From contig JAFKFH010000013.1 in assembly GCA_017307375.1 (NCBI GenBank), positions 124,001 to 188,000 on the forward strand: a DNA stretch of 64,000 nucleotides, read 5' to 3'. Position numbers and translations under genes: made by a program. Position 1 is the first letter of the stretch. Each line of letters starts with the position of its first letter. Of this stretch, positions 46,177 through 53,173 are shown piece by piece. The stretch is from Alphaproteobacteria bacterium (GTDB taxonomy: Bacteria > Pseudomonadota > Alphaproteobacteria > Ferrovibrionales > Ferrovibrionaceae). A model generated the notes under the pieces. It was not told where the DNA came from and searched no databases. It saw only the letters and a list, made by a program, of their open reading frames with translations.

Positions 46177-46197
46177 CCTTATGTCCCGGCGATTGAC

Positions 46198-46218
46198 TAT
46201 CAACAAATCTGTTGAATA
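46198..46218. promoter_or_regulatory. ArsR-type operator site 1 (CAAC-N6-GTTG) before arsR
   Basis: TATCAAC and GTTGAATA flank a 6-base spacer, ending 9 bases before the arsR ATG at 46227. The same core occurs twice more at 46812 and 46853, before the DUF899 gene. Position predicts autorepression by the regulator. Confidence 0.7.
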
Positions 46219-46226
46219 ATCGCGAG

Positions 46227-46598
46227 ATGAGCCAAGCCGTCACCGAGCCGGCGGAGAGGGCCGATGCGGAATCGGCCCTCGACCGCGTCTTCTTTGCGCT
46301 GAGCGATCCGATCCGCCGCGCGATCCTGGTGCGGCTGGACGCGGGACCGGCCCTGGTCTCGGAACTGGCGGCGCCGTTCGACATGAGCCTTCAGGGCGTG
46401 TCGCGCCATATCCAGGTGCTGGTGCGTGCCGGGTTGATCCGTCAGGAACGTACCGGCCGGATCAGCCGCTGCCAGCTCGAGGCCGCCCCCATCCACGACG
46501 CCGCGGTCTGGATGGATCGCTATGCCAAATATTGGCATCGCGGGCTCGATTCCCTCGAAGCGCTGCTCGGCGCCCCGAACCCGCCCCGGCAAGACTGA
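46227..46598 (+). CDS. ArsR/SmtB-type winged-helix regulator without metal site
   Basis: A 123-residue repressor. The helix-turn-helix and wing are clear: FFALSDPIRRAILVRLDAG, VSELAAPFDMSLQGVSRHI, VLVRAGLIRQERTGR. The ELCVCDL-type metal-binding helix is absent and there is no Cys, so it belongs to the non-metal branch often found beside small stress or SRPBCC genes. ATG 46227 is chosen; TTG 46212 would place the start inside the operator. Three copies of its likely operator lie before it and before the DUF899 gene. Confidence 0.92.
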   Translation: MSQAVTEPAERADAESALDRVFFALSDPIRRAILVRLDAGPALVSELAAPFDMSLQGVSRHIQVLVRAGLIRQERTGRISRCQLEAAPIHDAAVWMDRYAKYWHRGLDSLEALLGAPNPPRQD

Positions 46599-46620
46599 GG
46601 ACGGCGCCGCGGCGCCAGCT

Positions 46621-46797
46621 TCAACCCCGGGATAGCAGGCTATGGCAGATCGGCGGAGCGTCGAGATCGCCAGCCGACACCTCATGCCAGAAGAACCAGG
46701 CCCCGGCCAGCAAAGCTGCGGCAATGCCCGCCGCTGCGCAGCGTCGTGCCAATGCGACGTTGGCCGCGGCCAGCATCCCGATCAGACAGCACAGCAT
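46621..46797 (-). CDS. Small membrane protein, 58 residues
   Basis: A short open frame on the minus strand, starting at ATG 46797 with GGGGG five bases upstream. It encodes CC near the N-terminus (MLCCLIG), a hydrophobic stretch with RRC in the middle, a second helix ending AGAWFFWHEV, and a short soluble tail with ICH. Two short membrane passes are likely. No family is recognised. Operator site 2 lies 15 bases upstream of its ATG, so it may be co-regulated with the divergent DUF899 gene. The frame is convergent with arsR. Confidence 0.6.
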   Translation of the reverse strand: MLCCLIGMLAAANVALARRCAAAGIAAALLAGAWFFWHEVSAGDLDAPPICHSLLSRG

Positions 46798-46811
46798 GGA
46801 CGCCCCCTAGA

Positions 46812-46833
46812 TATTCAACAAAAACGTTGAATA
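46812..46833. promoter_or_regulatory. ArsR-type operator site 2 between the small membrane gene and DUF899 gene
   Basis: Perfect 8-base arms TATTCAAC and GTTGAATA around AAAAAC, the best of the three sites. It lies 15 bases before the 58-residue gene and 57 bases before the DUF899 start, so it could serve both directions. Confidence 0.7.
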
Positions 46834-46852
46834 ACAATGCTGGAGATGATAA

Positions 46853-46870
46853 TCAACAAATCCGTTTATA
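46853..46870. promoter_or_regulatory. ArsR-type operator site 3 (half-degenerate)
   Basis: TCAAC, spacer AAATCC, then GTTTATA. The left half shares the 11-mer ATCAACAAATC with site 1, while the right half is weaker. It ends 20 bases before the DUF899 start, where bound repressor would block transcription. Confidence 0.55.
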
Positions 46871-46890
46871 ATCATTCGATGGAGGCGACG

Positions 46891-47610
46891 ATGACCACCG
46901 ATACCCTGGCCGAACCCCGTATCGTCGAGCGTGCGGCATGGCTGCAGGCGCGGCTGGACTTGCTGGCCGAGGAGAAGGCATTCACCCGGGCACGCGATGC
47001 GCTGGCCGCACGGCGGCGCGAGATGCCCTGGACGAAAGTCGAGAAGGACTATGTGTTCGATGGCAGGCAGGGTCCGCTCGGCCTGGCGGACCTGTTCGGC
47101 CGGCACAGCCAGTTGATCGTCTATCATTTCATGTTCGCGCCGGAAGCCGAGACCGGCTGCAGGAGCTGCTCGTTCTGGGCCGATCACTTCGACGGCATGC
47201 GGCCGCATCTGGCCGCCCGTGACACCGCCTTCGCGGCAATATCGCGGGCACCGCTGCACAAGCTGGCGGCGCAGGCCAACCGGCTGGGCTGGGGCTTTAC
47301 CTGGGTTTCGTCGGGGCGCTGCAGCTTCAACCATGATTTCGACGTCTCCTTCGGCAAGGAGATGCTCGAACATGGCGGCGGCACCTACAACTACGAGCCT
47401 CTGACGCGGAAACAGCCGGATCTGCCCGGGGTCAGCGTCTTCGCGCGCACCGATGACGGCGTGTTCCACACCTACTCGGCCTATGCCCGCGGCATCGATT
47501 TCCTGAACGCGACCTACAACTACCTCGACCTGACCCCGAAGGGCCGCAACGAGGAGGGTCTCCCCTGGCCGATGGCCTGGGTCAGGCTGCGGGACGACTA
47601 CGCCGCCTGA
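46891..47610 (+). CDS. DUF899-family thioredoxin-like protein
   Basis: A 239-residue protein of the DUF899 family in the thioredoxin superfamily. Landmarks are LDLLAEEKAFTRARD, REMPWTKVEKDYVFDG, LIVYHFMFAP, the CxxC in GCRSCSFWADHFDG, and the late FHTYSAYARGIDF with LDLTPKGR. The active-site-like Cys pair follows the first strand as in peroxiredoxins, so a redox role is plausible. ATG 46891 follows GGAGG; an upstream frame from 46837 runs through operator site 3. It is followed by a strong terminator. Confidence 0.9.
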   Translation: MTTDTLAEPRIVERAAWLQARLDLLAEEKAFTRARDALAARRREMPWTKVEKDYVFDGRQGPLGLADLFGRHSQLIVYHFMFAPEAETGCRSCSFWADHFDGMRPHLAARDTAFAAISRAPLHKLAAQANRLGWGFTWVSSGRCSFNHDFDVSFGKEMLEHGGGTYNYEPLTRKQPDLPGVSVFARTDDGVFHTYSAYARGIDFLNATYNYLDLTPKGRNEEGLPWPMAWVRLRDDYAA

Positions 47611-52387: not shown

Positions 52388-53173
52388 TCAGCGCGAAATC
52401 TTGGCCTCGACGATCGGCCAGAAATCCTCGGCCTTGAGGCTGGCGCCGCCGACCAGCGCACCGTCGACATTGGCCACAGCCATCAGTTCGGCCGCATTCG
52501 ACGCCTTGACCGAACCGCCATAGAGCAGGCGGAATGCCGCGCCGTCGGCAAAGCGGGCGACCAGGTCGGCGCGCAGCCGCGCGTGAACCTCGGCGACCTG
52601 GTCCGCGGTCGGCGTGCGGCCGGTGCCGATCGCCCAGACCGGTTCGTAGGCAACGACCGTGTTGGCCGCGGTGGCGCCCGCCGGGACCGAACCTGCGATC
52701 TGGCGCGAAACGACGTCGAGGGTCCGACCGCCATCGCGCTGGTCGAGGGTTTCGCCAATGCAGACGATCGCGGTGAGGCCGGCGGCATGGGCCGCTCGCG
52801 CCTTGGCCTCGACGGCCGCGTCGGTTTCGCCGTGATCGGCACGACGCTCGGAATGGCCGACGATGACATAGGCGCAGCCAATGTCGCGCAGCGAATCGGC
52901 CGAGATATCGCCGGTATGGGCGCCCTTGGCCTCGGCATGGCAATCCTGCCCGCCGACGCCGACCGACTGGGCGGCGCCGAACGCGGCCAGCGCCAGCACC
53001 GCGGGGTGCAGCAGCGTGGCCGGCGGGCAGACCACGACCTCGGGCAGGCCACGGGTCGACTTGATACGATCGGAGAGCAGCCCGAGCTCGGCCAGGCCGG
53101 CCTGAAGTGTACCGTTCATTTTCCAGTTGCCGGCGATCAGCGGGCGCGGCGCCGCGGGGGTCATGGTTGCCAT
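52388..53173 (-). CDS. tpiA: Triose-phosphate isomerase
   Basis: A 261-residue TIM-barrel enzyme of glycolysis. The substrate Lys in [10 protein letters not shown], His in VIVGHSERR, the catalytic Glu in [11 protein letters not shown] and the phosphate loop LYGGSVKA are in place. ATG 53173 follows GAGGGCGGGG; ATG 53164 is also possible. It is divergent from ppiD. Confidence 0.97.

Follow-up and report, generated by a model that had tools for sequence, protein, structure and literature searches.

A non-metal-type ArsR repressor gene, a DUF899 gene and a small hydrophobic-protein gene as a probable self-regulated redox module with operators phased at 19 bp

The arsR/DUF899/small-gene locus (Table 1) of the 64-kb stretch of DNA analysed here (the window) most likely represents a genuine, though modest, new self-regulated redox module, in which an ArsR autorepressor of the non-metal type would control the divergent promoters of a DUF899 protein with a predicted peroxiredoxin fold and of a small Cys-rich membrane protein; taken as a whole, this mechanism is considered probable. 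Sequence comparison establishes the conservation of the sites, their phasing and the conservation of the small gene, and a fold model and the linkage of the genes add to it; repression by ArsR, the inducer and a joint redox function are what we infer. The original prediction had regarded the locus as self-regulated, and it is favored by the positions of the sites, which overlap predicted promoters and, in the whole genome, occur only at arsR genes. The pairing of arsR with DUF899 is common; only rarely does the small gene complete it to a trio, which was found in four genomes.

In the preferred mechanism, a dedicated non-metal-type ArsR would bind the palindrome TCAAY-N6-RTTGA, shutting off its own promoter at site 1 and, on the array of three units, the two promoters from which the small gene and the DUF899 gene are read back to back; with the units placed over the predicted -35 and -10 boxes, dimers occupying them would keep RNA polymerase off the two divergent promoters at the same time. 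A signal, possibly an oxidant or electrophile that reacts with the thiol of Cys82, would release ArsR and induce the CxxC protein of peroxiredoxin fold together with the Cys-containing membrane peptide, and both products may act jointly in thiol redox defence. A more specific version, in which the microprotein, with its three conserved Cys, and the DUF899 protein are co-induced as a membrane-linked thiol redox unit, and ArsR occupies the 19-bp array in a cooperative manner and detects thiol oxidation with its one Cys, appears rather doubtful.

Table 1. Genes, operator units and predicted promoters of the locus (positions in the window)
Feature	Positions	Strand	Details
Predicted sigma-70-type arsR promoter	46193..46220	+	TTGACT, 16 nt, AATAAT; wraps site 1
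Operator site 1	46196..46219	+	core TCAACaaatctGTTGA, 46200-46215; 28.7 bits
arsR-type repressor gene	46227..46598	+	123 aa; single conserved Cys82; recognition helix SLQGVSRH
Small hydrophobic-protein gene	46621..46797	-	58 aa; MLCCL start, C-terminal Cys51; divergent from DUF899
Possible small-gene promoter	46810..46837	-	TTGTTA (46837-46832), 16 nt, AATATC (46815-46810); from sequence only
Operator site 2, array unit 1	46811..46834	+	TATTCAAC-N6-GTTGAATA, perfect 8-bp arms; 32.5 bits
Degenerate middle array unit	46830..46853	+	AATAACAAT-N6-GATGATAAT; 19 bp from each neighbour; 17.9 bits
Operator site 3, array unit 3	46849..46872	+	ATAATCAAC-N6-GTTTATAAT; 32.3 bits
DUF899 gene	46891..47610	+	239 aa from preferred start; alternative ATGs 46879, 46837

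Three sites with one core had been proposed for this locus, and this description holds for sites 1 and 2, which match CAAC-N6-GTTG exactly (46201-46214 and 46816-46829; 0.39 matches expected in the window), whereas site 3 is degenerate (CAAC-N6-GTTT); the inverted repeat described at site 2 (46812-46833) is perfect, with an 8-6-8 layout. A position matrix derived from operator-like palindromes beside ArsR genes of other genomes only, which avoids circularity, was applied to the 64-kb window and ranks sites 2, 3 and 1, in this order, as the top three matches. The fourth-ranked match lies midway between sites 2 and 3; this middle unit was overlooked in the original prediction and completes an array with 19/19-bp steps. 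The best matrix score outside the locus in the whole window is 7.8. A third exact CAAC-N6-GTTG, at 52651, receives no score from the matrix and is considered a chance match. In the 7.54-Mb genome, TCAAC-N6-GTTGA is present at sites 1 and 2 only, and the relaxed TYAAC-N6-GTTRA in three places, all of them at arsR genes; the sole additional place is the start codon of another arsR, and the gene that follows it looks SRPBCC-like.

The operator overlaps the promoter of the repressor itself, as in autorepressors, since site 1 extends across the promoter predicted for arsR, which agrees with the consensus at 10 of 12 positions (expectation in the promoter scan, 0.2); the arsR ATG is located 6 nt past the -10 box, and thus a leaderless transcript is possible. 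The possible promoter of the small gene has the same register relative to site 2 as the arsR promoter has to site 1; neither a small-gene promoter nor the possible -35 boxes of the divergent region, which are poor, were reported by the promoter scan. The halves of the middle unit are possible -35 boxes of both divergent promoters, and a -10-like TATAAT (46867-46872) is found in the right flank of site 3. The units of the window's divergent region have offsets of 13, 32 and 51, that is, steps of 19 bp, and the offsets in the matching regions are 11/30/49 in Chelatococcus (L033), 13/32/51 in Methylopila (L035) and 12/31/50 in a member of the same family (L005), with the 19/19 pattern of the window also present in L054. 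Upstream of arsR, two to three units at 19-bp steps are found in L048, L049, L050, L051, L052 and L054, and altogether nine other loci of the window's ArsR clade carry tandem sites with the exact 19-bp step; the sites are therefore kept in relatives, according to both the matrix scan and the tandem units at related loci. Across all regions examined, 15 site pairs are 19 bp apart, 5 are 38 bp apart and 4 in total are spaced differently, although these pairs are not independent events because the regions are mutually homologous. Exact phasing of ArsR sites makes cooperative repression clearly and cheaply testable.

The spacing has a second possible origin, namely that the 19-bp phasing is a by-product, with one true ArsR site per promoter and second half-sites that are TTGACA-like -35 boxes fixed relative to the -10. 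An RTTGA half together with the one or two bases after it makes up the TTGACA-like -35 box, and the AT-rich -10 box is the right flank of the following unit; because of this coincidence, the phasing may stem from the packing of repressors, from promoter geometry or from both, and promoter geometry, not repressor contacts, could dictate the 19-bp step. Just half a unit is present upstream of site 1, in line with a by-product, but the distal TCAAY halves, which hold no promoter element, are also conserved (L048, L035, L005 and L054), and this origin is regarded as possible but unlikely. It is improbable that the sites are those of another regulator that has both arsR and DUF899 as targets. A palindrome by itself names no protein, and binding of ArsR to the TCAAC-type sites is deduced from sequence; nevertheless, many genomes have the site at arsR-type genes irrespective of their neighbors, the window's own genome has it exclusively there, and the letters of the operator and the recognition helix of ArsR change jointly. 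Without exception, Pro56 accompanies TTAAC-N6-GTTAA-type sites, which lack the C-G step (25 loci), and Gln, Asn, Ala or Thr at this position accompanies sites that have this step (10 loci), a pairing also seen in further loci, including matches from 398 genomes of the phylum. The Fisher test of residue 56 against operator type gives 5e-9 when descent is ignored; on the tree, residue and operator changed together only about twice, so the covariation is weak once corrected for phylogeny, and the pairing is supportive rather than decisive and carries modest weight. The assignment of the regulator to the ArsR family agrees with what had been proposed (HTH_20, 3.3e-14; HTH_5, 2.3e-6; NF033788, 64.7 bits against a cut-off of 55); the nearest solved structure by sequence is 3f6o, and the SdpR autorepressor model NF033789 gives 53 bits, below its cut-off of 100. 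Its clade comprises 10 proteins (tree support 99), in all of which the recognition helix has Gln56, and a DUF899-family gene lies beside arsR in 10 of 10 members; besides the window's own protein, no further members were detected in 398 genomes of the phylum. The absence of metal ligands noted originally is also confirmed: C82 is the sole Cys, neither H90 nor H104 is conserved within the clade, alpha3 has no CxC, and the conserved Cys, His or Asp ligands of alpha3 or alpha5 that characterize metal-sensing ArsR proteins are missing, which makes metal sensing unlikely. The regulator as a metal sensor, with DUF899 serving in metal stress, would agree with the NCBIfam name (metalloregulator ArsR/SmtB family) and with the metal response reported for a Brucella ArsR (PMC8509827), but no Cys besides C82 is conserved in the clade any more than the two His residues, the module has neither metal transporter nor reductase, and this reading is judged very improbable. 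Of 47 other ArsR homologues, 36 have Cys82 as well; the thiol signal is for this reason a guess, and the Cys is not specific to the arsR/DUF899 system.

As regards the small gene, an overlooked minus-strand frame of 58 residues had been pointed out, and it is present as described, with an SD-like AGGGGG 5 nt upstream of its ATG, which lies 14 nt from site 2. Its counterparts opposite DUF899 are frames of 74 (L033), 78 (L035) and 75 (L005) codons, so the frame is kept in three other genera at the same divergent position. We consider it highly improbable that this frame is not a gene and that the conserved DNA is just promoter and leader. By codon statistics it is not told apart from wrong frames, 34% of the wrong open frames scoring better and its codon use being atypical, and homology searches are empty: over 96 relatives and 385 class genomes, BLAST/HMM recovered only the window's own copy plus chance matches, and a DNA pattern search (small-gene start plus upstream TTGA) of the 385 class genomes gave the same result. 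Nevertheless, the four frames (58, 74, 78 and 75 aa) are open in four genera with lengths that differ by whole codons, every relative has the identical MLCCL start after an SD-like sequence and a single Cys in the C-terminal part, and pN is lower than pS in the comparisons of the window gene with L033 (0.43/0.75) and L035 (0.36/0.66), being less clear with L005 (0.50/0.58); the alignment score with each of the three relatives was reached by 0 of 1000 shuffles. The conservation was revealed by a frame listing of the Chelatococcus locus, which illustrates how conserved position and a shared operator can bring to light a short gene that homology searches miss. The gene is therefore judged to be real but not widespread, and was found in four genomes. 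None of the four members matches a Pfam family at E up to 1, and no NCBIfam family matches the window's 58-aa protein. The fold model is a single helix of low confidence (pLDDT 62.6), and the protein is called a membrane protein because its sequence is hydrophobic; a membrane location thus appears plausible from its composition.

The identity originally given to the DUF899 protein is secure (Pfam PF05988, 1.2e-86, 290 bits against a gathering threshold of 27). The start at 46891 is preferred because GGAGG precedes ATGACC there, and an SD with ATGACC is also found in L033 and L035. The description as thioredoxin-like with a CxxC agrees with the invariance of C90-x-x-C93 in 31 aligned relatives, an alignment that includes the short DUF899-like proteins after arsR in L033, L050 and L054, and DUF899 belongs to the thioredoxin-like clan of Pfam (PMC3091736). 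The AlphaFold2 model (pLDDT 93.5) matches AhpC/BCP/peroxiredoxin Q-type structures in Foldseek (best E 4.5e-7, probability 1.00), with TM values of up to 0.69 by target and of only about 0.4-0.47 by query. The modelled protein thus appears to adopt a peroxiredoxin fold, which makes a redox function likely; in sequence, the Pfam search gives DUF899 only, with no AhpC-TSA or Redoxin match, and no solved DUF899 structure was found by sequence search. No activity or assigned function of DUF899 was encountered in the literature found, with most subscription journals outside the search. DUF899 is widespread, and its repeated tight linkage to small repressors, together with an operator defined closely enough for mutagenesis, offers a handle on inducer and substrate. 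Short DUF899-like proteins of about 190-200 aa with a CxxC (L033:6488-7099, L077:901-1470, L050:829-1398 and L054:896-1465) follow arsR or DUF899 in the window's ArsR clade, and 3 of 3 scanned match AhpC-TSA; the window's genome has no separate short copy, the search giving its two DUF899 genes only. A second set of DUF899 genes is divergent from MarR genes (L097, the second copy of the window's own genome, C28:30810-31496, and L018, L020, L022 and L029), the MarR regulator starting with M(V)RDTCLCLHVQRAARA and having two Cys near the N-terminus. Two unrelated types of repressor are thus linked to DUF899.

ArsR autorepressors belong to a known kind, as does the pairing of such repressors with small enzymes. 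The non-metal autorepressors of the ArsR/SRPBCC and SdpR-like types (NF033788/NF033789; 3f6o) share with the window the winged helix, a palindrome over their own promoter and an adjoining target, but the window has Gln56 with TCAAC instead of TTAAC, tandem sites at 19 bp, DUF899 instead of SRPBCC as target and a score below the SdpR cut-off. SmtB/ArsR metal sensors have inverted repeats overlapping promoters; in SmtB, CmtR and NmtR, the fold and these repeats are alike, whereas the window's clade has no conserved metal ligands. Peroxiredoxin Q/BCP (AhpC-TSA) resembles the modelled DUF899 protein in fold and in a conserved Cys in an active-site-like loop, but the latter has a CxxC pair, a long N-terminal helix and 10-18% identity. 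In the MarR-DUF899 divergent pairs, L097 included, DUF899 also lies beside a small repressor gene, but the MarR protein carries the Cys residues of an N-terminal CLCLH and no TCAAC arrays were found. The statement that inducer and function are not described for a trio of this sort is weakly supported, as no paper joining DUF899 and ArsR was found; the literature searched, which has most subscription journals outside it, does not mention the two together, and searches on ArsR returned nothing on the window's subfamily. With the same limit, the literature found has nothing on the Gln-type ArsR clade and its phased operators, on the DUF899 targets of this clade or on the MLCCL protein.

At other ArsR loci, the operator ATACTTAACcatATGGTTAAGTAT of many Pro-type arsR genes contains the start codon (L055, L057, L012, L056, L058, L060, L074 and L096), and the first residues (MVKY and similar) are consequently dictated by the operator. 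The second ArsR of the window's own genome (L153, C38) also has this start-codon-in-operator layout, with MVES, and a pair of TCAACCATG-type sites, separated by about 39 bp, where arsR starts; an NRAMP-like metal transporter gene (L153:1553-2959) is located directly upstream. Palindromes that keep the 6-bp spacer but have other letters (ATTCC/GGAAT and ATAGC/GCTAT) are found at more distant arsR genes beside DUF899 (L034, L038, L080 and L083), which suggests that a systematic reading of the operator code of this ArsR family could be possible.
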